Part shown: piece by piece, positions 44,379-64,000 of the stretch | How the letters are laid out: each line of letters opens with the position of its first letter | Numbering within the stretch: the stretch's first letter is position 1 | Origin: Blastocatellia bacterium | GTDB taxonomy: Bacteria > Acidobacteriota > Blastocatellia > Chloracidobacteriales > JADJPF01 | Length of the DNA: 64,000 nt | Direction: 5' to 3' | NCBI GenBank assembly: GCA_025057015.1 | Contig: JANWYG010000010.1 | Span: 218,506-282,505 of the forward strand | Notes under the pieces: model-generated | Told to the model about the DNA's origin: nothing | What the model saw: the letters and a program-made list of their open reading frames with translations, nothing else | The model's database searches: none | Made by a program: the position numbers and the translations under genes

Positions 44379-45695
44379 ATGAATATAGTAGAGGCTATAA
44401 GGAGTGCAGGCGTAGTTGGTGCTGGCGGAGCGGGATTCCCGGCGCATGTCAAAGCCGCTTCGAAAGTAGAGTATGTGATAGCTAACGGTGCGGAATGTGA
44501 ACCGCTGTTACATAAGGACTATGAGTTGATGGTTCATTTTCCGGCGCAAGTGATACGTGGGCTGAAACTGTTGATGCAGTCAACGGGTGCTGAGCGGGGA
44601 ATAATAGGCATAAAGGAGAAGAATAGCAGCGCTATTGAGGCGATTGAGTCTGCTATAGATGATCCACGAATACGATTGCATCTGCTTGGAGATTTCTATC
44701 CTTCTGGGGATGAATATGTGCTGGTGTATGAAGCTACAGGGAGGCTTATCCCGCCGCAGGGTATCCCTTTGGATGTTGATATAGTGGTAAACAATGTAGA
44801 GACTATGTACAACATAGCGCGTGCTGCTCAGGGTCTACCTGTAGTAGAGAAGTTTATTACCGTAACGGGAGCGGTAAGTAGGCCTATTACTTTTATTGCT
44901 CCCGTAGGGATGAGTTATCGTGATGCTATAGCGGCTGCTGGAGGTGCTACTGTTAGCGATTTTGCTGTCTTCGTGAGCGGTATAATGATGGGTAAACTGG
45001 AATTTAATCTGGATCTGCCGATTACTAAAACCTGTGCTGGGCTAATAGTGCTTCCTCGGAACCACTATCTTGTGAGTCGGTATGAGCAGCCTACTACTGC
45101 TATGCATCGTATTGGTAAGTCGGCTTGTGATCAGTGTAGCTATTGTACGGAGTTATGTCCCAGGTATATCCTAGGCTATGATGTACAGCCACACAAAGTG
45201 ATGCGCAGTCTTAGCTTCACTGCTACAGGCGATGATATCTGGAATCAGTATGCGCAGCTTTGTTGTGCTTGTGGGCTATGCACGCTCTATGCTTGTCCAG
45301 AAAGCCTCTATCCTAAGGAGGCTTGTGACAAAGGTAAGCATGATTTACGGTTGAAGGGAATCAAGTGGTCTGGGAAGCGCGAGGTAACGCCGCATCCTAT
45401 GTATGAGTATCGCCGTACGCCGCTCAAGATGTTAGTAAACAAGCTTGGCATAGCCGATTATGAAAGGCCGACGCCTTTTACTGTGCTTGAGCAGCTACCA
45501 AGACGTGTAGAGATACCGCTACAGCAGCACATAGGGGCTGTGGCTGAGCCGGTGGTAAGGGTAGGTGACGTTGTCAAAAGCGGGGATCTAATTGGCGAGA
45601 TACCTTCGGGGAAGCTTGGCGCAAGGGTTCATGCTAGCATTGACGGGGTAGTGCGCGAGGTATCCGACAAGATAGTCATAGAGAGGAACGTATGA
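44379..45695 (+). CDS. pduS: PduS-like RnfC-family iron-sulfur flavoprotein
   Basis: 438 residues from ATG 44379 (TTG 44364 is also in frame). It begins with the RnfC/NuoF-like nucleotide loop GVVGAGGAGFPAHVKAAS and NGAECEPLLHKDYELM. A SLBB region follows (FITVTGAVSRPITFIAPVGM). Two 4Fe-4S sites are visible: Cys250/253/256/260 (CDQCSYCTELCP) and Cys295-306 (CCACGLCTLYACPESLYP), the latter spacing being typical of PduS. The tail is a biotinyl-like barrel (VRVGDVVKSGDLIGEIPSG). PduS reduces cobalamin inside propanediol microcompartments and partners with the shell protein PduT. The stop overlaps the start of the pduT-like gene (ATGA). Assignment to a B12 role here is an inference. Confidence 0.88.
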   Translation: MNIVEAIRSAGVVGAGGAGFPAHVKAASKVEYVIANGAECEPLLHKDYELMVHFPAQVIRGLKLLMQSTGAERGIIGIKEKNSSAIEAIESAIDDPRIRLHLLGDFYPSGDEYVLVYEATGRLIPPQGIPLDVDIVVNNVETMYNIARAAQGLPVVEKFITVTGAVSRPITFIAPVGMSYRDAIAAAGGATVSDFAVFVSGIMMGKLEFNLDLPITKTCAGLIVLPRNHYLVSRYEQPTTAMHRIGKSACDQCSYCTELCPRYILGYDVQPHKVMRSLSFTATGDDIWNQYAQLCCACGLCTLYACPESLYPKEACDKGKHDLRLKGIKWSGKREVTPHPMYEYRRTPLKMLVNKLGIADYERPTPFTVLEQLPRRVEIPLQQHIGAVAEPVVRVGDVVKSGDLIGEIPSGKLGARVHASIDGVVREVSDKIVIERNV

Positions 45696-46243
45696 AGAAG
45701 AACTCGATAGGTTTGATAGAGCTTTCGAGCATAGCTGCTGGATATTTAGTGGTTGACGCTATGTTGAAGGCTGCAGATGTAGAACTGCTGCTTGCACGAT
45801 CGATTTGCTCTGGCAAGTACATGACTATGGTTAGGGGAAACGTTGGAGAGGTAAAATCGAGCGTTCAGGCTGGCATAGAAGTTGGCCGCGGCTTTATAAT
45901 AGATACCTTTGTTATTCCTAACGTACACGATCAAGTCTTTCCGGCAATATACGGTTCTGCAAAGTTCGATGAGCTTGAATCTCTAGGAGTATTGGAGTCT
46001 TTTTCTGTAGCTTCTTTGATAGAGGCGGCTGATGCTGCTGCAAAGGCGGCTGCTGTGCAGCTTCTAGAAATACGTCTTGCTATGGCGCTTGGTGGCAAAG
46101 CTTTCGTGACTATGACCGGGCCTGTGGCTGCAGTACAGTCGGCAGTTAATGCTGGTGCTGCCGTGCTTGCTGACAAAGGATTGCTCGTAAATAAGGTGGT
46201 AATACCTGCTCCACGAAAAGAACTGCTTTCAGAGATGATATAG
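45692..46243 (+). CDS. pduT: Tandem-BMC microcompartment shell protein, PduT-like
   Basis: 183 residues with two BMC domains (SIGLIELSSIAAGYLVVDAM from residue 5; LGVLESFSVASLIEAADAAA from ~98), the layout of BMC-T trimers. The motif ARSICSGKYMTMV places Cys39 where PduT has the pore Cys that ligates a 4Fe-4S cluster, and the C-terminal LLVNKVVIPAP also matches PduT. It probably conducts electrons across a shell to the adjacent PduS-like protein. No other shell, vertex or signature-enzyme gene is in the window, so the rest of the compartment must be encoded elsewhere, or this pair acts without one. Confidence 0.92.
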   Translation: MKKNSIGLIELSSIAAGYLVVDAMLKAADVELLLARSICSGKYMTMVRGNVGEVKSSVQAGIEVGRGFIIDTFVIPNVHDQVFPAIYGSAKFDELESLGVLESFSVASLIEAADAAAKAAAVQLLEIRLAMALGGKAFVTMTGPVAAVQSAVNAGAAVLADKGLLVNKVVIPAPRKELLSEMI

Positions 46244-47886: not shown

Positions 47887-49530
47887 ATGAATGAATGGCC
47901 TTTTCTAAGCTTCCCTAGTGCCGAGAACCTCGAACAGGGTGAGTCACTGAAAGGTGTCTTCCTGCCAAAGCTAATAGCTGAAATTTCTAATGAATGTCTT
48001 ACCGGGATGCTGTGGCTAAAGTCTGGCAATATTGTTACCGGAATACATTGGCGCAGCGGTGAGATAGTTTTTGCTGTATCTAACACAGAACGATTCGGCA
48101 TGTTTTTGGTCGAGCAGCGTCATATTTCCCAAGAGCATTTGCTTACGGTTGAAAATTTTTGTCGAGCTAACGCTACAGATATCTGTGATGGTCTCCTGAG
48201 ATTAGGGTATTTAGAAAGTAGCTCGCTCATACCTTTGTTGAAGACCTATCTTTACATAACCGTATATTCTTGCCTAGACCTAGCTGATGGATTTTATAGC
48301 TTCGAGACAGTATTGCCTAGGATACCTTATGAGCTGCTTACGTCAATCCATGTAGCGGAATTAGTGCTTGAAGCTACTCAGAATCTTTTTCCTGTAGCTC
48401 GGCTCAAATCTTTTCTAGGAGCTTATGAACAAGCAAGGTTAGTGCCTGCTGAGGGGATTAAACTTGGCGATAGTTATAAATACAAATCTCAGGCAGCCTT
48501 AATAGAACGTCTGACTGCCTCGATCAATACGTACCAAACTTTGAGAAGAGAGGTAAAATCTGAAGACGATCTGATAAGAATAATAGCTGCTTTGGTAGCA
48601 TTAGGAGCTATCAGAATGGAAGAGCTTCGGTCTGAGGCTAGCGGTGCTACTGAGGCTGAAGGCGAGGAGTACGCGCAGGTGACTGCTGCTGATATCCCTA
48701 TGTTTCTCTATGAGATAGAAAACATGCTTGGGCATTTGCGTTCGAGTAAGGATCATTACTCGAGGTTGGAAGTAGCGCGACAAGCTCCTACGTCAGAGAT
48801 AGAGGCTGTCTACAGACGGTTGTGCAAAAGATTTAGTCCCGATCGCTGTCTGCAGTTGGTAAGCAGTATGCCTTTAGTTGCTGAGCAGCTTGCTGAGATT
48901 CGCAGGTATTTGGATCAGGCATTTTCGGTACTTAGCGATAATTTGAGGAGGCGTGAGTATAATGACGAGCTGAAGCGGTCTGAAGGGGTACTGATCAAAG
49001 ATCCAATAAACCCTGTGGAGGTTACTACAGGTAGTCATAAGCGCCCTGTGGACTCTCAGGTTGATGCTCAAAAAAGTTCTCAGCAGAGCAAAGCTTCAAA
49101 GGAAGCGTCGCTTCAGAAGAACCCCTACGAGCAGCGTTTGTCGATAGACCTTTCTCGAATGCGAAATGCCGACGATTGGTATTTGTTGGGTCTGGAACTA
49201 CTTGAGCGCGGCGAAGGTGCTCGCGCAGTCAGGGTGTTCCAAAATGCTATTAAAATGCGGCCGAACGACGGTGAGTTTCACGCTGCGCTGGCCCGCGCCT
49301 GTGACGTTGCTTATGGATATAATGAACAGACGGTGAGGATGTTCGAACGAGCTATAGATCTAAACCGCTCTTGTGAGGCGGACTATCAGGCCGAGCTAGG
49401 TGTTTTCTATCTCAAGCACGGTAAGCTTGAGCAAGCTGAAGCCCGCTTAAATAAGGCGTTGGCTATAGATCCTTTGCATCGTGTTGCTACGAAGGCTTAC
49501 GCTAAGCTGAATGATAAAAAGAAGCTATAG
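47887..49530 (+). CDS. DUF4388 - J-like domain - TPR protein
   Basis: 547 residues. The N-terminal ~120 residues match DUF4388/PatA-N patterns (CLTGMLWLKSGNIVTGIHW, GEIVFAVSNTERFGMFLVEQ), found in gliding and signalling proteins. A helical middle follows. Residues ~295-360 resemble a J-domain (HYSRLEVARQAPTSEIEAVY, then RRLCKRFSPDRC), but the HPD tripeptide is SPD (Ser317), so DnaK stimulation is doubtful. A polar linker leads to TPR-like repeats at the end (WYLLGLELLERGEGARAVRV, LGVFYLKHGKLEQAEARLNK). It is probably a cytoplasmic scaffold in signalling; partner unknown. Confidence 0.8.
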   Translation: MNEWPFLSFPSAENLEQGESLKGVFLPKLIAEISNECLTGMLWLKSGNIVTGIHWRSGEIVFAVSNTERFGMFLVEQRHISQEHLLTVENFCRANATDICDGLLRLGYLESSSLIPLLKTYLYITVYSCLDLADGFYSFETVLPRIPYELLTSIHVAELVLEATQNLFPVARLKSFLGAYEQARLVPAEGIKLGDSYKYKSQAALIERLTASINTYQTLRREVKSEDDLIRIIAALVALGAIRMEELRSEASGATEAEGEEYAQVTAADIPMFLYEIENMLGHLRSSKDHYSRLEVARQAPTSEIEAVYRRLCKRFSPDRCLQLVSSMPLVAEQLAEIRRYLDQAFSVLSDNLRRREYNDELKRSEGVLIKDPINPVEVTTGSHKRPVDSQVDAQKSSQQSKASKEASLQKNPYEQRLSIDLSRMRNADDWYLLGLELLERGEGARAVRVFQNAIKMRPNDGEFHAALARACDVAYGYNEQTVRMFERAIDLNRSCEADYQAELGVFYLKHGKLEQAEARLNKALAIDPLHRVATKAYAKLNDKKKL

Positions 49531-52913: not shown

Positions 52914-54455
52914 ATGGCAGTAGCAGAGACGCCGAGTCAGCCGGCACCGCCGGAGTATAGTCAACTTCTTGGGCATCCACGTCCCTTGTGGATGTTGTTT
53001 ATGTCGGAGTTCTGGGAGCGTTTTGCGTTTTATGGTATTCGCTGGGCGCTAGTACTTTACATAGTCGCACAATTTTATGGTGGTAGAGGAGAAGGACAGC
53101 AGCCTGCAGGTTTTATCTACGGCTCTTACTTAGCGCTGGTTTATGCTGGTGCGATTTTTGGCGGATACGTAGCAGATAAATACATAGGTTATCAGAGATC
53201 GATACTTGTAGGCGCTGTTTTCATGGCTATAGGACTCTTTATGATAAGTATTCCCAACCAGGAGATCTTCAAGTTAGGTTTAGCTACCATAGTTGTCGGT
53301 AACGGAATGTTCAAGCCTATCATTTCGACTATAGTTGGGCGTATATATGCTCCTGGGGATGAACGGCGGGATTCAGGCTTTACCATTTTCTATATGGGCA
53401 TCAACCTTGGAGCGATGCTTGCTCCGCTGATTACGCAGTATCTTGCTCGCAAAGTGTTTGGTTCTGAGACGATGCCTGCCTACAAGGTGGTGTTTTTGGC
53501 TTCTGCCGCAGGTATGATCATTAGCACGGTTTGGTTCTGGCTGGGAAGGAAACAGCTCAAGGGTGTAGGTGGCCCGCCACCAGGCGGTGAGAGTCCTAAG
53601 CGCATATTGATAGTCGCTCTCGGAGCACTGGTAGTCATACCTGTCGTTTACTTTCTCCTAGCTATAGGCGCCGAACGGCTACAGTTACTGCTTACGGTAA
53701 TGTTTATAGTCCTTGCCGTGATGCTTGTCTTAGAGGGTATTAGAAACGGCCCTGTAGCCCGTGATAAGGTGATAGCTATGATGATCATCTTTGCTTTCAA
53801 CATCCTTTTCTGGATGTTCTTCGAGCAGGCCGGAAGCTCGTTTACTTTTCTAGCTGATGAGATAGTAAATCGAGATATCTTCCCACCGGGCTGGCTACAG
53901 AATATGGTCTATACCTTGGGCGGTGAACGAGTGTTCCCTACGGCTTGGTTTCAAAGCGTAAATTCTGTGGCTATTATCACTCTGGCTCCGGTGACAGCCT
54001 GGATCTGGGTTAAACTTGGTCGTTGGAACCCTTCTATTCCTCGCAAGTTTGGAATGGGGCTTATCTTCAACGGGCTGGCGTTCTTGCTACTAATGTTTGC
54101 CCTTTCCAAACTAGTTGACCCCGTAACTAATAAAATACCCTTCTGGACGCTGTTTGCTGTCTATTGGATTCAATCTATAGGCGAGCTTTGCCTCTCACCA
54201 ATAGGCTTGTCAATGGTGACCAAGCTTGCACCGGTGCGGCTAGTGGGGTTTGGCATGGGAGGATGGTTTCTTTCGACCGGTATAGGAAATAATCTTTCTG
54301 GCATTTTTGCCGGACATGTTTCTGGAAGCGAAGGTATGACTACGGCGTCAGCACTTGCAGGATATACTTTTGGTTTCTATGCGCTGGTTGGTGCAGGCCT
54401 CCTGCTGTTTTTGCTGGCACCGCTAATACAAAAACTGATGCATGGAGTCAAATAG
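52914..54455 (+). CDS. POT-family proton-dependent oligopeptide transporter
   Basis: 513 residues with 12-14 membrane helices. Family landmarks are the N-terminal FWERFAFYGIRWALVLYIV (ExxER-like region), the loop GGYVADKYIGYQRSILVGAV, and the PTR2-like YMGINLGAMLAPLITQYLA. Further on come FEQAGSSFTFLADEIVNR and YWIQSIGELCLSPIGLSMV. Members import di- and tripeptides with protons. GTGAGGTAA lies 8 nt before the ATG. It is the first gene of a plus-strand operon; its end overlaps the tandem-PgsC gene by 14 bases, which suggests that peptide uptake and that system work together (inference). Confidence 0.9.
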   Translation: MAVAETPSQPAPPEYSQLLGHPRPLWMLFMSEFWERFAFYGIRWALVLYIVAQFYGGRGEGQQPAGFIYGSYLALVYAGAIFGGYVADKYIGYQRSILVGAVFMAIGLFMISIPNQEIFKLGLATIVVGNGMFKPIISTIVGRIYAPGDERRDSGFTIFYMGINLGAMLAPLITQYLARKVFGSETMPAYKVVFLASAAGMIISTVWFWLGRKQLKGVGGPPPGGESPKRILIVALGALVVIPVVYFLLAIGAERLQLLLTVMFIVLAVMLVLEGIRNGPVARDKVIAMMIIFAFNILFWMFFEQAGSSFTFLADEIVNRDIFPPGWLQNMVYTLGGERVFPTAWFQSVNSVAIITLAPVTAWIWVKLGRWNPSIPRKFGMGLIFNGLAFLLLMFALSKLVDPVTNKIPFWTLFAVYWIQSIGELCLSPIGLSMVTKLAPVRLVGFGMGGWFLSTGIGNNLSGIFAGHVSGSEGMTTASALAGYTFGFYALVGAGLLLFLLAPLIQKLMHGVK

Positions 54456-57417
54456 TCGCTCTATTGCAGCGAAGTGTGCTAAAGTAGCGCTGCTTCTTAT
54501 AGCCGTCGCTGGCTTCTTGGTCAGCGACGTGCGCCTACCTATCTTTTACGAGAATGGTCTTGGTAGCTCTATCTTTCCGCCGGTACTCGTTGGCGTAGTA
54601 GTGATGACCCTCGGAGCAGAGCTTTTCGGCTGGGTCTACTCTGGACTGCTCGTGCCTGGGTTTATCGCACCTATAATCATCCTTGAACCTCGCTCGGCAG
54701 TACTGATGGCCGTAGAAGCAATACTCAGCTACCTTTTTGTACTGGGACTATCTACGCTTGGTACAAAAACAGACCTGTGGTCTGAATTCTTTGGGAGAGA
54801 ACGCTTTTTCGCAATACTAATAGTAAGCGTAGGTGTAAGGCTTCTGCTGGAAGCTGCTGTGCTGCCTCACTTAGGCATATTGATTAGCGGAGAGGTGTCG
54901 AGTGTAGGATTTGTCTTTGTCCCGCTTCTTGCAAATATGTTTTGGAACTCTGGGCTCAGAAAAACTTTCTGGCCAGTTTCTTGCTCGATATTTCTGACTT
55001 GGCTAATTACTAGATACCTGCTCATCGAACATACCAACTTTTCTCTAAGCCGGCTAAACCTGATCTATGAAGCAGCTTCTATAGAGTTTGCCAGCGGAGC
55101 TAAATCGCAAATAATACTTCTTACGGCTGCATATCTTGCTTCACGCTCTAACATACTCTACGGTTGGGACTTTAACGGCATACTAGTTCCGTCTCTACTT
55201 GCTCTAGTGGTCGTATATCCAACAAAGTACGTAGCGACACTCGTAGAAGCAATAAGCGTCCTTCTGATAGCTAAATTCATCGCCAGTAGAAAGCGTTTTG
55301 AGACGACTACTATAGAAGGGCCGAGGAAGACGCTCTTCCTTTTTACCATCTCTTTTCTGGTAAAAATGGTTATAGATGCCACGTTAGGACTACGTTGGCC
55401 TGGACTTACAGCAATAGATTTCTATGGTTTTGGCTATATACTGTCTACGCTGATGGCAGCGAAAATGTGGCAGAAGGGCGCAAGTATAGTCTTGCTACCT
55501 ATCTTGCGCACTTCTTTATTCGCTGCTTTGGTAGGAAACGTTTTAGGTTTTACTCTTTCGTTCATAGGTAAGCAAGAGATTGTAGCAAGTACCGATGCCA
55601 GAGCGAGAGTGTTACGAATGCATAGCAAAGAACTTTCTCGCCAGTTGCTGCTGTCTAAGATGCGACTCAACTCGAAGGAAGTCGTTACTCCGGATAGGTA
55701 CTTGCAGTTTGCTAGGTTGTTCGAGCAGCTATCAGAAAGCCAGAACAGCGGACGTCAAGACTTCGAGCGTTATGTTGCTGAGCTTGTAAGTCTTGACTGT
55801 GAGCTAGTGCTCTTTGTCAATGATGACGGTACAACCTCGGACATCTTATTGAGGGAAGTCAAGGAAAATGCAGGATTTGGGTTTGTACTGTTTTCCGCTA
55901 AGCCTCATAATAGCCTGTTGATATACGCTCTAGATGCTCATCGGAACTTGGGTTCACTACAACTAGCAGATAAACTGTACCGTAAGCTAGGCGCTGGCAT
56001 TTTGATAGCTACGGAAAAGTCTGAAGTAGGCAATCTTTTATGTGCCCGCTCGGAGATGGCGGTGCTCGAGCTGAGATCGAGAGTGTCGATGACCGCTGTG
56101 ACTACTGTTAACGTGAAAAACTGTCTGCCAGAAGCTCTCAGTCTTACGGAGCTGCGCTCACTGCTCGGAGATTTTAATTTAGTTACCGATGCACCGTTAA
56201 TTGGAAGCTCTGAAGGCTACGTTCAGCTTATCGCTTCACAAGCGAAGATTGATTCCGTATTAGCGGCTCCTGAGGAGGTGGAAAACGCATATCTGGTCGA
56301 ATGGTTTTTTAGACAACGGAGAGCAGTAAGTAGCGTAAACATTGCACCTGACGAGGCCAAGTTCTACGATGAAGAATTGCTAAGATCCCTTCTAATAGGA
56401 GCGGATACGCCGTCGGTGCGATCTGCTGCTAAGACTACCGGATATCAACTGTTGAGTTTCCGAAGTGGCGATGTGACTGCTAACTTCGATAACTTGGCAG
56501 CATATAAGGTACTTAGATCAGTTGTGGGTAATCAAACGACGGTAGTGATAAACAAGCGACGTTCTGGCTTACCGGTAATAATCGAGGTTCCCAGGCCATT
56601 TTCCGAGCCTAACGCTTTGCTTTTTGCGTTTCAGCTTATGGACTATCTCGATGCTTGGGCATTGATTATTTCTGGTTCAGACGAAAATGATGCCTTGTTT
56701 GACATTGCTCATAGGCGAGTGCAATCTTTGATGTCTTCTGCAGGCCAGTTTCCTTTAGTAGTGCAAGTGCGTAGCTCCATAGGCGAACGCTATGATGTGG
56801 TGCTGAATGCAGGCTTCGAACTGACTGACATATCTGCACTAACTCCTGCTGCTAGCAAATTTGTTGAGAAGCTGCAGTACATAGGTCAGAAAATCGCTTT
56901 CTACGATGGATCACTGGAAATGCTTCGATATGCAGGAAAACAGAACACTCAAGCTAGATATTCTGCTCGTTTTCCAAAGAGTTTTCTCACACTTTGGAAG
57001 TTAACTCCTCTGCCTGTGAGTTTATACGAGGAAGCACAGCTTTCTAGAAAGCGTCTAGCAATGCTGGGTGTTAGCCAGCTTGTAGGAGACTTTCGCAAGT
57101 GGGCGACAACTCAGAAGCGCTTGGCAAGACCTACTGACATAAGCGATGTGATTTCGGCTCTTGCGCGTTATTCGCGGTATCACAACATTAATGACCTGGA
57201 AGAGGCTTTGTCTATTGCAAGGAGGATTGGGTTTACTACGATATGCTACTACGATGGGCCTAGCTGCCAAACTTTTTTAGTGCTTCTCTATGGCGACAAG
57301 CTAGCTTATGTGCTGAGGCTCAGCTTGCTTGCTGATGATAAAATATTCAAGGGAGCTAATGATCTGGATAGGTTTGTGTACGATGAAAAACTTGTGGGGC
57401 TGAGATTTAATGAATAA
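54442..57417 (+). CDS. Tandem PgsC/CapC-like membrane protein with large C-terminal region
   Basis: 991 residues. The first ~385 are membrane-embedded and hold two copies of a PgsC/CapC-like unit. Unit 1 (~55-205) has YSGLLVPGFIAPIIILEP and SVGFVFVPLLANMFWNSG; unit 2 (~225-375) has FNGILVPSLLALVVVYPTKY and FYGFGYILSTLMAAKMWQKG. These match the VPG-x-A loop and the terminal GYIIPGLIA-type element of poly-gamma-glutamate synthase subunit C. The C-terminal ~600 residues are soluble and unassigned. Two stretches (FVLFSAKPHNSLLIYALDAH around His489; VIIEVPRPFSEPNALLFAFQ near 712) look like degenerate amidohydrolase elements. It overlaps both neighbours, so it is fully coupled. Normal PgsC is ~150 residues, making the duplication and fusion notable. 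Confidence 0.75.
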   Translation: MESNSRSIAAKCAKVALLLIAVAGFLVSDVRLPIFYENGLGSSIFPPVLVGVVVMTLGAELFGWVYSGLLVPGFIAPIIILEPRSAVLMAVEAILSYLFVLGLSTLGTKTDLWSEFFGRERFFAILIVSVGVRLLLEAAVLPHLGILISGEVSSVGFVFVPLLANMFWNSGLRKTFWPVSCSIFLTWLITRYLLIEHTNFSLSRLNLIYEAASIEFASGAKSQIILLTAAYLASRSNILYGWDFNGILVPSLLALVVVYPTKYVATLVEAISVLLIAKFIASRKRFETTTIEGPRKTLFLFTISFLVKMVIDATLGLRWPGLTAIDFYGFGYILSTLMAAKMWQKGASIVLLPILRTSLFAALVGNVLGFTLSFIGKQEIVASTDARARVLRMHSKELSRQLLLSKMRLNSKEVVTPDRYLQFARLFEQLSESQNSGRQDFERYVAELVSLDCELVLFVNDDGTTSDILLREVKENAGFGFVLFSAKPHNSLLIYALDAHRNLGSLQLADKLYRKLGAGILIATEKSEVGNLLCARSEMAVLELRSRVSMTAVTTVNVKNCLPEALSLTELRSLLGDFNLVTDAPLIGSSEGYVQLIASQAKIDSVLAAPEEVENAYLVEWFFRQRRAVSSVNIAPDEAKFYDEELLRSLLIGADTPSVRSAAKTTGYQLLSFRSGDVTANFDNLAAYKVLRSVVGNQTTVVINKRRSGLPVIIEVPRPFSEPNALLFAFQLMDYLDAWALIISGSDENDALFDIAHRRVQSLMSSAGQFPLVVQVRSSIGERYDVVLNAGFELTDISALTPAASKFVEKLQYIGQKIAFYDGSLEMLRYAGKQNTQARYSARFPKSFLTLWKLTPLPVSLYEEAQLSRKRLAMLGVSQLVGDFRKWATTQKRLARPTDISDVISALARYSRYHNINDLEEALSIARRIGFTTICYYDGPSCQTFLVLLYGDKLAYVLRLSLLADDKIFKGANDLDRFVYDEKLVGLRFNE

Positions 57418-59512
57418 GCTGGCAGTCCTATTTTGTCTACTATTTTTTTTCGTATTAGCCTTACTTTGGCAGCGTAGCTTTGTGGCGCCGCAGAAGACTG
57501 GCAAGCCAGCATTCAGACTTGTCAAAGGTTCTGCCCTCAAGTTTGCTTTGTCGCCCACCGATACCGAACTGCAGATAGATAGTAACCTCGAGGCGCTTTC
57601 TGAAATAGCTGAGTATGTCTATAGCATCCGGGTTGAGGTGTTGAGTGGTAACAGGAAGATTTTTGAAAGGATTTTTTATGAAAAGACCCGCAGCTCTGAT
57701 CCTGGTGGGCTTAGCCAGTCGCGTTCTACTGTAGTGGTACTAAACGGTGTACCTTTTGGGGCAAAGATGTACATTAGTCTTGAAGCTGCTCCAACTGATT
57801 CTGCTCTTGTGAGAGTATCTAGAGTGAGAAGAGGAGAACTTGCAGTGTTTGATGGCAGTAGGACGGAGAATGTCCTAGTTAGGCGATCTGAGTTAATAGC
57901 ACCAGAAGGAGTGCCAGGCAGCGATTATTCACAAGTAGAAGTTGCTGCCGAAATGCCGTCTGTCGAGCAAGAGCTACCAAAGGTTATTCAAGGGCTCTTG
58001 TTAGGCCCTCGTCAGGGATTGGTCTATCAGCTAAGTGGTAGGTATAAACTAGAAGTTATAGATGAAAAAGGACATAAGCTGCCGCCGACGTCGGTAACTG
58101 TTGCTGAAAAACTGTACAGAGAAGGTAGGGTAGTTACGTTTAGAAATGCTCTTGATAGGCCTATTTATCTGCAGGTTGAGCAGATGGAAAGTGATAGCTG
58201 GACGGTACCTATGCCGCTTGGGGAAGAGATGCGCTATTGGATGTTAACTGAAAGTTCGAAATTAATAGCAGACTTCGTAAATACTCCGCGGCGAGTACGC
58301 TTGGTTACGCGTGCGAAACTGGCCGCTCTGCAGGAAAAGGAGGATTATCTGGTCAGGTTTCGTTGTTTAGACGGAGATAAGGTACTGCTAGAGGGGCAGT
58401 ACGCTGCAAGATCATACTTCGAGCCTTTTGACAGATTCGTTCCTGAGGAAATATTTGCTCGTACTGAGGTTGTCGGGACACGGCATGTAGCTTATCTCTA
58501 CTTGCCACCTGGAACTAAGCGTCTCGAGCTGTCTTCTGAAAGCCAAGTGCTGGCGGTATTGATGACTGAGCCGGCGACTAGAGTTTATGCCGACGGCAGC
58601 TGGTTCTATTTTCGTCCTTCAAATTTTGAAGAGCTTCTAGAAGGCAATAAAGTCCGAACGATAGCTGCTGCTTCGACAAACAGTATGAGAGCTGAGTTGG
58701 TAGGCTATCTGCCGCCAAAAAAGATGCTTCGCAGTGTTGAGGGACTCGAAGCTGTACTGCTACGTCCTCAGGGGCTCTATTTCGTCGAGGTATTTGAACC
58801 GGTTTCTGATATCTCCAATCTAGAGAGTTACTATGAAGCTGTAGAGTCGAAGGATTTACCTTTGTCGATAACGGCTGATAAAGCTTATTTGCGGTATAGC
58901 TTACAAAGCTCTCAAGCTGAAGTGGGTACTAGTGAGAAAAAGATGGTCATTTCTGGGCATACTCCTGTAGGCAAACTAGCGCTGCAGAAGCCTAACTCTT
59001 TGGAGTTCATTAACTCTCTTGCCTCGGATGAGTACTATATTAGCCGCAATAAGGCTCTCGAACGATTGCAGCCAGATGCAAAAAGGCATCTATCGGCTAA
59101 CTATCGGGCGGAACGCGACTACTATCCTGTATCTGCTGGCCAACCACTCGAGGTGAGTTTTGACTATGAGCCGACGATAGCGGGCATAAATATCTTTGTC
59201 AGAGCAAGTAGTGAGGGAGAGACGTTACTGCGTGCCAGCGTGTTTTCTGCTGCTGAACTTGTAGCCTCTCGTACATATAGGGTAAGAAGCGTAGCAGATA
59301 TGCAGGCGGTTTTGACAAACAGGCCAGAGGAAGTGCTGGGTCAAGCAAAGCGGTTTTTTCTGCCCTTGCGCTTATCTTCTCCGGGCACGTATCTTCTTAG
59401 GCTAGAGCTGATTGGTGGAGAGCGTGTCTACGTTCGGTTGCTTTACTATAGACAACCAATAGAAGTACGACAACAAGATGAGATGCACTTTTGGGTAGAG
59501 TCAAATGAATAG
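57410..59512 (+). CDS. Large exported beta-rich protein, unknown function
   Basis: 700 residues. It starts with an uncleaved anchor or signal (LAVLFCLLFFFVLALLWQRS). The rest is periplasmic and beta-strand-rich with no recognised domain; sequences such as LYLPPGTKRLELSSESQVLA, FLPLRLSSPGTYLLRLELIG and ISLEAAPTDSALVRVSRVRR suggest several Ig- or jelly-roll-like modules. No catalytic motif, lipobox or Cys pairs stand out. It overlaps the tandem-PgsC gene and the hydrolase gene by 8 bases each, so it must act in the same process, perhaps as an extracytoplasmic scaffold or polymer-binding subunit. Function not assigned. Confidence 0.72.
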   Translation: MNKLAVLFCLLFFFVLALLWQRSFVAPQKTGKPAFRLVKGSALKFALSPTDTELQIDSNLEALSEIAEYVYSIRVEVLSGNRKIFERIFYEKTRSSDPGGLSQSRSTVVVLNGVPFGAKMYISLEAAPTDSALVRVSRVRRGELAVFDGSRTENVLVRRSELIAPEGVPGSDYSQVEVAAEMPSVEQELPKVIQGLLLGPRQGLVYQLSGRYKLEVIDEKGHKLPPTSVTVAEKLYREGRVVTFRNALDRPIYLQVEQMESDSWTVPMPLGEEMRYWMLTESSKLIADFVNTPRRVRLVTRAKLAALQEKEDYLVRFRCLDGDKVLLEGQYAARSYFEPFDRFVPEEIFARTEVVGTRHVAYLYLPPGTKRLELSSESQVLAVLMTEPATRVYADGSWFYFRPSNFEELLEGNKVRTIAAASTNSMRAELVGYLPPKKMLRSVEGLEAVLLRPQGLYFVEVFEPVSDISNLESYYEAVESKDLPLSITADKAYLRYSLQSSQAEVGTSEKKMVISGHTPVGKLALQKPNSLEFINSLASDEYYISRNKALERLQPDAKRHLSANYRAERDYYPVSAGQPLEVSFDYEPTIAGINIFVRASSEGETLLRASVFSAAELVASRTYRVRSVADMQAVLTNRPEEVLGQAKRFFLPLRLSSPGTYLLRLELIGGERVYVRLLYYRQPIEVRQQDEMHFWVESNE

Positions 59513-60401
59513 TATTTACTTGGGCTTGTTTGTCTTGCTTGGTTTTCACAATCAGGGTGATGAACTAGAGCGGTTGTACAATCTCTCTCAAGAAGCAGCA
59601 AAGTACGCTGAAGTTTATGCGCCGCCTGCACAGGAGCTTCGTCAAAAGTTCAGTGATGCTTTTGCAGAGCTTGCCGAAGCAGTGTATATAGGCAATACGA
59701 GCAAAGCACTAGCTGCTGTTCCACAGTTTGCGAGCTTGGGATTCTGCTTGGTTAAGACGAAATCTGCTGGTAAGACACTTTTTATACTGATTGAGGAAAC
59801 TGGTAAGGAAAGAGGAGGAGGTTTTTATGTTCTACGAGAAAAGCCGCGCTCGGCTATTGTAGTTATGGCTCCGCATCGATTTTTCGACGTTGGTACAGGT
59901 AGGATAGCCCTTGGCGTTTTTCGCAATGAGCAGGGGTTTGCTCTGATGACAAACACTTTTCATAGGTATACCGGAGCACTTAGCGAACGCCGAGACAAGT
60001 ATGGTACTGATGTTGCTCATCGAAGCGACAACTTTTACTTTTCTGCCTTCAAGGCTCTTCTAGATAGGTTTCCAAAAGCTACATTTATCCAAATACACGG
60101 TTTTGATAGCGTCAAGCGCAATAGCCAACACGATTTAATCTTAAGCTCTGGAAATACGTTGAATCCATTGGTAGAGCGACTTGCCGAGAGGTTAAGAGCG
60201 GTATTGAATGGCTACGTGGTTTCTGTCTATGGGAAGAGCGTAGAAGAACTAGGTGGTACAACAAACGTACACGCAAAAGAAGTTGCAGCTAGAGGCTCTA
60301 CAGCACGGTTCTTTCATATAGAACTATCAGATAGACTCCGAAAAGAACTTTTGCACAACAAAGCTCTTGCGAAGGCTTTTGCAAAAGCTTTAGCTATTTG
60401 A
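59505..60401 (+). CDS. Poly-gamma-glutamate-hydrolase-like zinc amidohydrolase (putative)
   Basis: 298 residues. A short N-terminal hydrophobic stretch (SIYLGLFVLLGFH) may direct export. Candidate zinc-site motifs appear in the order expected of the gamma-PGA hydrolase/N-formylglutamate amidohydrolase group: MAPHRFFDVGTGRIAL (His124, Asp128, Thr131), VAHRSDNFYF (His172), FIQIHGFDS (His198) and FFHIELSDRLR (His271, Glu273). Family enzymes use an APHGG-x-IExGT-like metal loop; here the GG is replaced, so substrate may differ. It sits immediately after the 700-residue protein and just before the CHASE2 protein. The call rests on motif pattern only; an N-acetylmuramyl amidase-like or carboxypeptidase role is possible. 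Confidence 0.6.
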   Translation: MNSIYLGLFVLLGFHNQGDELERLYNLSQEAAKYAEVYAPPAQELRQKFSDAFAELAEAVYIGNTSKALAAVPQFASLGFCLVKTKSAGKTLFILIEETGKERGGGFYVLREKPRSAIVVMAPHRFFDVGTGRIALGVFRNEQGFALMTNTFHRYTGALSERRDKYGTDVAHRSDNFYFSAFKALLDRFPKATFIQIHGFDSVKRNSQHDLILSSGNTLNPLVERLAERLRAVLNGYVVSVYGKSVEELGGTTNVHAKEVAARGSTARFFHIELSDRLRKELLHNKALAKAFAKALAI

Positions 60402-60404
60402 AAA

Positions 60405-63014
60405 ATGCTTTTTAGAGCCCAACTGCTCGTCATTCTGGCTGTTGCCTCTACAGTTACGGTAGCTCACTTCCTGGGTGCTTTCTCTATCTTTGATCTGTGG
60501 GAATGGGATTTTGTCTTAAGGAACAGGCCGTTAAGTAGACCGTCTCCGTCAGTGCTTATAATCTCTTTGGATAGCAAGAAATGGCCGCTTGACGACAACG
60601 AACTTATTGAATTGACAGGTAAGCTAGAATCGGAAAGGCCTGCGGCTATAGTCTATACGTTTCATCTTAGTGAAGCAGTAAGGAAAGCTTTCCAAGGTCG
60701 ACGTGTAGTTTACCCTTTGGCTGCGACAAAGAGTCTAGGTGTTGCTTCCGTAGGCCAAGTGTCGCTGCACTTACCTGCGGCAATGAACTTGCTTACTCCT
60801 GCTGAAGATGGCGTACACCGCAAGCAGCAAGTAGTGTTTGCTACCGAATTTGGCGTACAAGCTTCGGTTTCGCTGGCGGCGCTTGTGGTGGCAGGCCTAG
60901 CTGAAACTAAGATAGAGCTCATCCCTGGCAAGCTTAGAAGTGGTGGTATAGAAATACCTTTGGACGAGCAGATGCGAACAGAAGCTATATTCGTAGGTCC
61001 TCGCCAGACCTATCCTTATATTCCTGTCGAGAAAGTGTTGAACGGAGATATTCCAGAGAAGTTTTTGACCGATAAAATGCTTTTCTTGGGTCCGACGAAC
61101 TCTGGTAATGCTAGGGAAGTGAAGACTTCGACTACGTTGATAGATAGCCCTATGCCTGAGGTCGAGTACTGGGCGCAGCTAACCGGTAGCTTGCTTGTTG
61201 GACGGGTGGCAACACGTCTGCAGCAGGAGCGCCTTTTAGTCGGGCTTTTTGTCTCGCTTGTTCTGCTGGGCTTTTTATTCAGCAGGCTGACACCTATCAG
61301 TGGAATGCTTTTCTCTACTTTACTTGTTGTTGTCACTTATATCTTTAACCTGTTTGCGATAGAAAAGGCATATTTTCAGGTTCCGTTCTACAGCTTTCGC
61401 GTCGGGCTGGTGCTGTTACTGGCTGGATTGAGTATCGCTCGCGTTGCTACGGTCTACTCTCTTTTGACTAGGATAATGCTGAAGCTGAAGCTGCGCAAGC
61501 GCGGCGTGATGATGGGTGACTTGCACTTTGTGAAGAACTGGTGGGAGCAAGCTGCAGATCTGGCGCTGAACTATCTAGACGTCGAAGCACAAGTTTTTTT
61601 TGAAAAGCTGCCTGCACACAAGCATATGCGCGTAGCTTATCTACGAGGGATATCTGCGGATGAGATAGTTGAGAAGCGCCGCGACTATACCCGCACACCG
61701 TTTGTGACTGCATTAGAAATTCGCGGGCCGATATTCGTCTCAAGATTCTTGTCTGGGCAACGTGCCGTGCTTCTTGTACCGATGGTATTTGGAAAAGTGT
61801 TATTAGGTTATTGGGTGATAGCTGCTTCTGCGGGCGAAGAGTATCTCAAAAGGCGTATGCTGATTATAACTCTGCTTGCAAGGGAGCTATCGGCTTCACT
61901 TTTTTATAATCAAGGAATGAAGATTAGTAGGACCGCTTTCGTCTTTAGCTTAGAAGATGTGTATTTGAGACTGAATACGCTGGAGAAACTTGCGGAGGAG
62001 CTACTAAATGAAAGTAATTTACTGTCCTCGGTTTTGAATACTGAAGTCGAGGGTGTAGTAGCTTGTGATCTGCTTGGACGTGTCTTTATCTACAACAATA
62101 CTTTAGTTGAGATGTTGTCTAAAGCAGGTCTTGAGTTAGATACAGAAAATGTGTTTAACACCGTTCATAGACTGGTCTGGGAAGACCAGAAACTGTTTAG
62201 GGAAGAGTTAACCTATGCAGTGCTGCGTAATACGAAAGTTACGTTTCGAGTTAATATTGCCGAAGCTGCTTATAGTTTGATCGTTCGCCCTATAGTCGAT
62301 CCTGAAAGCGAAGATGTGCAGCCACACGGACTAGTGCTAATCCTGCAGAACATCGAGGAACAAAGGCAAGCAGATAGCATGAAAGACAGTTTCATACACA
62401 ATATCTTTGGGCAGCTACAGAATTATCTTACTCCTATAGTCGGCTATAGCGAGCTGCTTTGCGAGATTGGTTCTGAAGAAGAGCGACAAATAGCAAGTGT
62501 TATTTATGAGAGAGCGAAAAAGTTAGCAGAATTGATAAATCGGGTATCACCTATAACTGACTCAGCCAGCGAAGTCACAAGTTCTGCGCAGCTAGAGGTT
62601 TTACCAACTGATATGATCCAGTTGCTTACGCAGGTCATAAAGGAAGTGAGTTATGGTGCCTACAAGCGGCAGATAGAAGTACAATTTGAACATCCTAACG
62701 TGATTAATTTCGTAGTGTGCCCTCGAAAAAAGCTTTATAGGGCTTTAGTTGACTGTCTGGAGTTCTTGATTGTCATCGCTCCCTCAGGAGCTACTATAAA
62801 AGTGTCGCTTGTCGAAAAGACGGATGATGTAGAGCTAAGCCTCAGCGTAATCGATTTCAGCTTACCACAAGATTTGATGGACAAGATCTCAAGAGAAGCT
62901 GGATCTAAGTTATTGGAAGTCGAGGCATTTATGCTTGCACAGGGCAATAAGTTCAGGCTAGATTACGGTAGCCATATGACTGTACAACTAAATATTCAAA
63001 AAGGTTGGAACTGA
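60405..63014 (+). CDS. CHASE2-PAS protein with degenerate histidine-kinase core
   Basis: 869 residues. A membrane helix near the start, an extracytoplasmic CHASE2 domain (~30-270; WEWDFVLRNRPLSRPSPSVL, EKFLTDKMLFLGPTN) and three C-terminal CHASE2 helices (~275-360) are followed by a GAF-like region and a PAS domain (~545-655). The HisKA-like segment reads FIHNIFGQLQNYLTPIVGYS, where the usual SHE is FGQ, so the phosphoacceptor His is missing. The HATPase N-box (LVDCLEFLIVIAP) lacks Asn and the G boxes are not recognisable. It therefore looks like a pseudokinase sensor. A receiver-only gene follows after one base. It could control its partner by binding rather than phosphate transfer. Confidence 0.78.
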   Translation: MLFRAQLLVILAVASTVTVAHFLGAFSIFDLWEWDFVLRNRPLSRPSPSVLIISLDSKKWPLDDNELIELTGKLESERPAAIVYTFHLSEAVRKAFQGRRVVYPLAATKSLGVASVGQVSLHLPAAMNLLTPAEDGVHRKQQVVFATEFGVQASVSLAALVVAGLAETKIELIPGKLRSGGIEIPLDEQMRTEAIFVGPRQTYPYIPVEKVLNGDIPEKFLTDKMLFLGPTNSGNAREVKTSTTLIDSPMPEVEYWAQLTGSLLVGRVATRLQQERLLVGLFVSLVLLGFLFSRLTPISGMLFSTLLVVVTYIFNLFAIEKAYFQVPFYSFRVGLVLLLAGLSIARVATVYSLLTRIMLKLKLRKRGVMMGDLHFVKNWWEQAADLALNYLDVEAQVFFEKLPAHKHMRVAYLRGISADEIVEKRRDYTRTPFVTALEIRGPIFVSRFLSGQRAVLLVPMVFGKVLLGYWVIAASAGEEYLKRRMLIITLLARELSASLFYNQGMKISRTAFVFSLEDVYLRLNTLEKLAEELLNESNLLSSVLNTEVEGVVACDLLGRVFIYNNTLVEMLSKAGLELDTENVFNTVHRLVWEDQKLFREELTYAVLRNTKVTFRVNIAEAAYSLIVRPIVDPESEDVQPHGLVLILQNIEEQRQADSMKDSFIHNIFGQLQNYLTPIVGYSELLCEIGSEEERQIASVIYERAKKLAELINRVSPITDSASEVTSSAQLEVLPTDMIQLLTQVIKEVSYGAYKRQIEVQFEHPNVINFVVCPRKKLYRALVDCLEFLIVIAPSGATIKVSLVEKTDDVELSLSVIDFSLPQDLMDKISREAGSKLLEVEAFMLAQGNKFRLDYGSHMTVQLNIQKGWN

Positions 63015-63015
63015 G

Positions 63016-63387
63016 ATGGAGTTTACAAAGTGGGTGTTGGTAGTGGACGATGATCCGATAGTGCGGAAGCTAATCTCGGTGGTGGCTAAGAGTTGCAACT
63101 TTGAAGTTGTGGAAGCAAATAACGGCAGGGAAGCTCTGGAGCTACTTAAAACTGATTACACTTATCTTCCTGATCTGATACTAGTTGACTTGTACATGCC
63201 AGAGATGGACGGAGCTAAGTACTGCCAAGCCTTACGTGATGAACTAGGGTATCCGCTCGAGCGGGTAGTAGTGATTTCGTCTGCTTCTATGAAAAAAGAC
63301 AGGGACCTGATAGCTTCTCTTGGAGTGAGAGATTTTTTGAAAAAACCGTTTTCTATGACTGACATTAGGAAATTGTTTCAGATTTAG
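63016..63387 (+). CDS. Single-domain response regulator (CheY-like receiver)
   Basis: 123 residues comprising one receiver domain: acidic pocket LVVDDDPIVRKL, phosphorylatable Asp in LILVDLYMPEMDG, Ser in VVISSASMKKD and the conserved Lys in FLKKPFS. No output domain. It starts directly after the CHASE2 pseudokinase gene (1-nt gap), a last position in the six-gene operon. All key residues are intact, although its immediate neighbour lacks kinase residues, so it may receive phosphate from another kinase. The 3' end overlaps the convergent gene by 4 bases. Confidence 0.93.
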   Translation: MEFTKWVLVVDDDPIVRKLISVVAKSCNFEVVEANNGREALELLKTDYTYLPDLILVDLYMPEMDGAKYCQALRDELGYPLERVVVISSASMKKDRDLIASLGVRDFLKKPFSMTDIRKLFQI

Positions 63388-64000
63388 GATTCCTTCTCCT
63401 TTGAACGCAACTGCTTTTTGAGCCAACCTCCTTTTTGCCTTACGGTCAACTCGCGAAGTATCGCCGCCGCTCTCTCGTGTGAGATAGTTTGTCGAGTGAG
63501 CTCTCTCAATACTAAATCAGCCTGTTTACGTCTACGCTTGCTGTCTTGACTTTCTAATAGTATTTCTAGCTTATCCAGCATTCGATCTACAAAGTTATTT
63601 TGAGATGCCTTGTTGGAAGCTTGTGTAGTAGCTTCTGCAGCTTGTAGAGCAGCCTTGAGCTTTTGTTGCATGCTAAAGATTTGGTTTATGGGGGATGCGA
63701 GAGCTGTTTTGATAGCTTCTATGGCGGCAGGCCTAGTAACAAGGCCGTATTCGTCGAAATAGATGAAAAAATCTGCTGCCTGACTGCGTTTTTTTTCGCT
63801 CGGATCGAGAAGTTGTCTACCCATTTCCTTAACACGTTCCAGCGCTACCCATCGATACACAAAATCTAGGCCGGTGCCTTTGATGTTCTGCATACCTATT
63901 ATGCGTAGCAAATAGTTTGGCGGGGAAGCTTCTGCTATCTTTAGTATGATCTCGTCACCAGTGGCATGAGCATCCTCTACGACCAAGAGTTTTGACAAAA
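63384..64000 (-). CDS. C-terminal part of an unidentified protein (cut by window end)
   Basis: At least 204 residues are visible; the first in-frame start-like codon is a TTG at 63998, so the gene most likely begins beyond the window. The visible part has LLVVEDAHATGDEIILKIAE and LLRIIGMQNIKGTGLDFVYR, then helical and very charged sequence (DKLEILLESQDSKRRRKQAD) with a basic C-terminus. No membrane helix or known motif is clear. I do not recognise the family. Confidence 0.6.
   Translation of the reverse strand, partial: LSKLLVVEDAHATGDEIILKIAEASPPNYLLRIIGMQNIKGTGLDFVYRWVALERVKEMGRQLLDPSEKKRSQAADFFIYFDEYGLVTRPAAIEAIKTALASPINQIFSMQQKLKAALQAAEATTQASNKASQNNFVDRMLDKLEILLESQDSKRRRKQADLVLRELTRQTISHERAAAILRELTVRQKGGWLKKQLRSKEKES

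Follow-up and report, generated by a model that had tools for sequence, protein, structure and literature searches.

Analysis of a 64,000-nt stretch of a Blastocatellia bacterium genome (hereafter, the window) uncovered a 991-aa protein (54442–57417, plus strand) in which two PgsC/CapC membrane units lie in one chain and are followed by a tail of about 600 aa made of hydrolase-like domains that have lost their catalytic residues. This protein, referred to here as PgsCC-tail, is probably the inner-membrane translocation subunit of a system for trans-envelope secretion of a poly-γ-glutamate (PGA)-like polymer. Most work on poly-γ-glutamate concerns Bacillus, in which the polymer has only one membrane to cross.

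The open frame is uninterrupted over its 991 codons, and the Pfam domain PF14102 (Caps_synth_CapC; cut-off 27 bits) matches it twice, with 73.3 bits for copy 1 (aa 45–200; 54574–55041) and 67 bits for copy 2 (aa 220–375; 55099–55566). All 40 PgsCC relatives tested exceed the same cut-off. The protein scores 58.5 bits against the equivalog model TIGR04011, under its cut-off of 96.45, and it is not a single unit of about 150 aa but two PgsC units joined to a tail of about 600 aa. Local alignment of the two copies, which extends over their length, scored 95, compared with a mean of 36.5 (sd 6.4, maximum 72) for 500 shuffles, and profile-profile comparison of the copy 1 family with the copy 2 family gave an E-value of 9e-6. 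A classical 157-aa PgsC, encoded adjacent to a classical PgsB in a planctomycete that has the PgsCC type as well, was aligned over its full length by both copy 1 (score 115; shuffle maximum 63) and copy 2 (score 93; shuffle maximum 62). The original prediction of a PgsC/CapC duplicated in one chain is thus borne out, as are the VP(G/S)xxA loop and the terminal GxxxxxLxA element that it placed in each unit: the window protein contains VPGFIA and VPSLLA, and the G-x5-LxA pattern occurs in GFVFVPLLAN and GYILSTLMAAK. No relative was recovered from the PDB by sequence search, whether the query was the PgsCC protein, the profile of its family, or the hydrolase profile described below.

The two halves have diverged from each other. 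Copy 1 keeps the PgsC-like VPG(F/Y) motif, whereas copy 2 carries YGWDFNGILVP in the window protein, a YGWDFNGI-P variant that is fixed, with nearly every position identical, in 44 relatives; for this reason the two halves probably have different roles. A tree built from 20 relatives has a single branch (support 98/96) that separates every first copy from every second copy, so that the copies form separate clades across phyla. The doubling is therefore old and is most simply explained by a single event before these lineages split. Basic residues in the 44 relatives concentrate on the loops at residues 109–122, 169–176, 281–296, and 343–350 (averages of 1.8–3.7), compared with 0–0.95 on the alternating loops, and this pattern would place the loops with the FGRxR and EGxRK motifs in the cytoplasm and the tail in the periplasm. 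For B. subtilis PgsC, one intracellular loop has been predicted (PMC6029982), which agrees with this assignment.

The tail was best understood by comparison with a protein encoded two genes downstream (59505–60401, plus strand), a stand-alone γ-PGA-hydrolase-like protein that scores 15.4 bits against PF05908, under the cut-off of 22. Aligned stand-alone hydrolases of these operons share an invariant PHxxxD, R, D, HG, S, FxHxE, and R (PHxxxD...R...D...HG...HxE), and all conserved motif residues are present in the window protein; none of the 33 stand-alone hydrolases of relatives matches PF05908 at an E-value of 0.01. In hhalign comparisons with these hydrolases, tail domain D1 (aa 400–640; 55639–56361), predicted to be periplasmic, was matched with a probability of 99.2 (E 3e-19) and domain D2 (aa 641–935; 56362–57246) with a probability of 99.7 (E 3e-25), while D1 and D2 matched each other with an E-value of 1e-23. 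As a control, the membrane PgsC copies gave no match to the hydrolase profiles in profile-profile comparison. A profile built from stand-alone hydrolases only found two tandem matches in the tails of relatives, with E-values down to 1e-33, and no match in shuffled or reversed tails; profile drift was therefore rejected as the source of the similarity. The window protein's own tail has no direct match to the hydrolase-family profile, being too diverged, and is linked to it through its relatives. In addition, some 70 residues near the C-terminal end (D3, aa 896–965; 57127–57336) may be a truncated third copy, given an hhalign match to the N-terminal part of D2 (probability 78.5, E 1.7e-5) and a similar order of helices and strands in the AlphaFold2 model. 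The tail thus consists, as originally proposed, of degenerate copies of the downstream domain.

In the AlphaFold2 model of the full protein (pLDDT 81.8), D1 and D2 have an identical order of strands and helices. The expected resemblance of the tail to N-formylglutamate amidohydrolases and γ-PGA hydrolases was recovered for D2, at modest Z values of 9.4 (2odf) and 8.3 for the former and 7.5, 6.9, and 6.4 for the latter (21dc, 3a9l, and 5onj, the first two from phage), along with a Z of about 8 for the CCP5 deglutamylase. Foldseek matched the tail to YndL with bound PGA at a probability of 0.99, but the E-values of its fold matches are weak (0.01–0.05). Since the structural scores are modest, the link of the tail to the hydrolase fold rests mainly on the profile comparisons.

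Catalytic residues have been lost from both domains. The positions of the metal-binding histidines are occupied in the window protein by Asp498 and Arg545 in D1 and by Arg718 and Arg777 in D2. Two amidohydrolase-like spots had been picked out from the sequence, around His489 and near residue 712; His489 does lie within D1, but the catalytic-histidine positions proved to be Asp498 and Arg718. Among 44 relatives, the first metal histidine is absent from D1 in 41 and from D2 in 39, and the second is retained in only one and two, respectively, having been replaced by arginine in 36 of 44 for D1 and in 35 of 44 for D2; 30 of the 44 proteins carry this arginine in both domains. With metal ligands missing from nearly all relatives, these sequence comparisons identify the tail domains as conserved pseudo-enzymes, and the apparently selected arginines suggest binding of a polyanion. 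The proposal that transport and processing parts are fused in this protein accordingly holds for the joining of hydrolase-like domains to PgsCC, but not for processing as such. It is very unlikely that the tail domains are instead enzymes of altered chemistry, whether active or regulated: most relatives keep an acidic residue at the position of the Asp, and D2 of one relative keeps both histidines, as such a reading would expect, yet the loss of the metal histidines is close to general and arginine is fixed in place of the second. The exceptional relative (L069:3-2711) is the only one of the 44 with both metal-type histidines in D2, and its D2 is perhaps near the ancestral active form. The domains are treated below as pseudo-enzymes.

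In the window, PgsCC-tail is encoded in a run of six plus-strand genes, in the order POT transporter, PgsCC-tail, P2, hydrolase, CHASE2 kinase, and response regulator. With intergenic gaps of −14, −8, −8, 3, and 1 nt, these genes form a tight operon. P2 (57410–59512) is a 700-aa protein with one N-terminal membrane helix and no Pfam match, and is a conserved partner of PgsCC-tail. The gene following the hydrolase (60405–63014) encodes a CHASE2 sensor (PF05226, 79 bits) with a degenerate histidine kinase: the phospho-acceptor histidine is absent from all aligned homologues (L011–L065) that reach the H-box, being glycine in the window, and the N-box is degenerate as well, so that the family is a conserved pseudo-kinase adjoining a single-domain response regulator (63016–63387; PF00072, 83.5 bits). 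The POT-family peptide transporter (52914–54455), which overlaps the start of PgsCC-tail by 14 nt, perhaps imports hydrolysis products; it was rejected as a conserved part of the system, being found only in the window genome and absent from relatives. No PilZ domain, the mark of c-di-GMP control, was matched in the scanned window proteins, no glycosyltransferase was found among the scanned cluster genes, and no glutamate racemase was seen in the cluster. Elsewhere in the window, a gene at 45692–46243 resembles, by eye, those for bacterial microcompartment shell proteins, and a gene at 47887–49530 encodes a protein with a DUF4388 domain, a DnaJ-like domain, and TPRs.

Facing this operon on the minus strand is the gene for a PgsB ligase, whose C-terminal end is encoded at 63384–64000 and the remainder beyond the window (C15:282506–286115). 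The complete protein is 1408 aa long (ORF L010:13890–18116) and comprises an N-terminal half with HEAT repeats and a C-terminal PgsB half that scores 194 bits against TIGR04012, under the equivalog cut-off of 222.7. A P-loop (GGWGTRGKSGTER) follows a single membrane helix and is conserved in relatives. PgsB homologues were found in 43 of 44 genomes tested that carry PgsCC, and are nearly always giant fusions (frames of 1187–1929 aa, the shorter ones probably cut by contig ends). PgsA/CapA (PF09587) was considered as a fixed part of the system and rejected, since only about 4 of 31 genomes encode it near PgsB.

Behind the HEAT-PgsB gene, the window genome encodes a protein of 1175 aa in which TPRs are combined with a C-terminal barrel, followed by a 789-aa TPR protein. 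TPRs were found by Pfam in these two proteins and in none of six relatives. The barrel was modeled from a homologue (L048:19710-21857), for which 14 long strands were predicted with high pLDDT, and whose homology with the window genome's protein spans the barrel (E 1e-14). The modeled barrel resembles CymA and OmpG (Z 17–19) and the polymer exporters PelB (Z 14.9), BcsC (13.9), and PgaA (12.9). One relative (L030:16567-22401) has a barrel protein with an OmpA peptidoglycan-binding domain (PF00691, 73 bits); this domain was rejected as a common feature of the exporter, as it is missing from five others. Because PgsB and a putative outer-membrane exporter are encoded just past the edge of the window, we regard the locus as a whole secretion system. 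The polymer could instead stay in the periplasm or serve as a storage compound, with the barrel protein serving some other purpose, in keeping with the listing of CapB and CapC of lucinid symbionts among storage-compound genes (PMC11168628) and with the opposite orientation of the barrel gene in the window genome. We consider this improbable, as most lineages have the barrel gene between those for the hydrolase and PgsB, the genes overlapping, and the nearest functional matches to the barrel fold are polymer exporters. Export through the barrel is the reading retained here.

When one genome per species was scanned for just two exact peptides, 59 further loci with the same PgsCC-tail architecture were recovered, spanning Myxococcota, Pseudomonadota, Campylobacterota, Verrucomicrobiota, Planctomycetota, a Wallbacteria MAG, and another acidobacterium. 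The usual gene order is CHASE2 pseudo-kinase, response regulator, PgsCC-tail, P2 (membrane-anchored and about 820 aa in these relatives), intact hydrolase, barrel protein, and PgsB. A P2 homologue is present at 53 of the 59 loci, a stand-alone hydrolase at at least 45, and the barrel protein at 39, counts to be read knowing that many contigs end early. Myxococcaceae loci (L015–L021, L027–L029, L031–L033, L035, and L068) encode a second, more diverged stand-alone hydrolase directly upstream of PgsCC. In the window's own lineage PgsCC is rare, as PF14102 occurs in only 2 of 162 genomes of its class and the nearest relative of the window protein comes from another acidobacterial MAG.

Taken as a machine, these parts would operate as follows. 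B. subtilis can make PGA with just PgsB and PgsC (PMC6029982), and on this basis HEAT-PgsB and PgsCC are proposed to make and translocate the chain, with the ligase polymerizing an amino acid at the cytoplasmic face and docking on the conserved basic FGRxR and EGxRK loops of PgsC. The doubled PgsC would act as a covalent dimer of diverged halves that forms the path through the inner membrane. In the periplasm, the two dead tail domains may bind the polyanion and pass it along uncut, since the arginine that replaces the catalytic histidine in both D1 and D2 would suit the binding of carboxylates, while P2 and the TPR scaffold could bridge the periplasm and the intact hydrolase could trim, release, or clear the polymer. 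The outer-membrane barrel would then export the chain, and the CHASE2 pseudo-kinase and response regulator may tune the system.

The identity of the polymer, which we infer from the homologies of its putative synthase and hydrolase, is the likeliest error in this proposal. PgsB and PgsC fall under their equivalog cut-offs, the hydrolases are a distinct family (0/33 at the Pfam threshold given above), and the cluster lacks a visible racemase, all of which would suit a different polymer of γ- or ω-linked amino acids, or a short peptide that tags some other molecule. Such a product is nevertheless unlikely, since the P-loop region of PgsB and both PgsC copies are clear homologues, and the hydrolase and tail resemble γ-PGA hydrolases and further enzymes that act on glutamate compounds: N-formylglutamate amidohydrolase (FGase), the CCP5 deglutamylase, and succinylglutamate desuccinylase. 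A PGA-like polymer is therefore preferred.

Many phyla were found in genome surveys to carry PGA genes, including homologues of PgsB and PgsC (PMC5542703, PMC4497714). The PgsCC-tail architecture and operon are undescribed in NCBIfam, Pfam, and the open-access literature searched, and may be described elsewhere; an eLife paper on "CapCone", surfaced by the CapC search, is unrelated. An account of PGA export across a Gram-negative outer membrane was likewise not found in the open-access literature searched. The operon offers a concrete candidate for each step of such export and, if the proposal is true, would explain how these polymers pass the Gram-negative outer membrane. It also presents conserved dead enzymes as possible polymer guides, a role open to test.

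Compared with known systems, the locus shares with Bacillus PgsBCA/CapBCA a PgsB ligase with a GxRGKS P-loop after a membrane helix and the membrane protein PgsC, the pair that forms the minimal synthase (PMC6029982). It differs in that a single chain holds two PgsC units and two pseudo-hydrolase domains, PgsB is joined to a HEAT-containing part of about 700 aa, PgsA is mostly non-adjacent, and a hydrolase, P2, and an outer-membrane barrel are added. The stand-alone protein and the tail may share a fold with PghP/YndL (PF05908) and N-formylglutamate amidohydrolases, and the former keeps the PHxxxD...HG...HxE signature; unlike PghP/YndL, it falls under the Pfam cut-off, and the tail copies are without metal ligands. 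Synthase-dependent polysaccharide systems follow a plan of an inner-membrane synthase, a periplasmic cleaving enzyme, an α-repeat scaffold, and an outer-membrane barrel (PMC9384988), and a layout like that of the Pel, PNAG, cellulose, and alginate systems is predicted here from sequence and models, with a putative scaffold. With somewhat less assurance than for the translocation role, we favor the view that these loci represent a distinct and widespread class of trans-envelope machine, a polyamide counterpart of the Pel, PNAG, and cellulose systems with its own outer-membrane channel and a periplasmic pseudo-hydrolase guide on a doubled PgsC. If true, the class would parallel the synthase-dependent polysaccharide systems with a wholly different polymer chemistry: in contrast to those systems, its putative synthase is an ATP-dependent amide ligase of the Mur-ligase type rather than a glycosyltransferase, and its polymer is predicted to be a polyamide.
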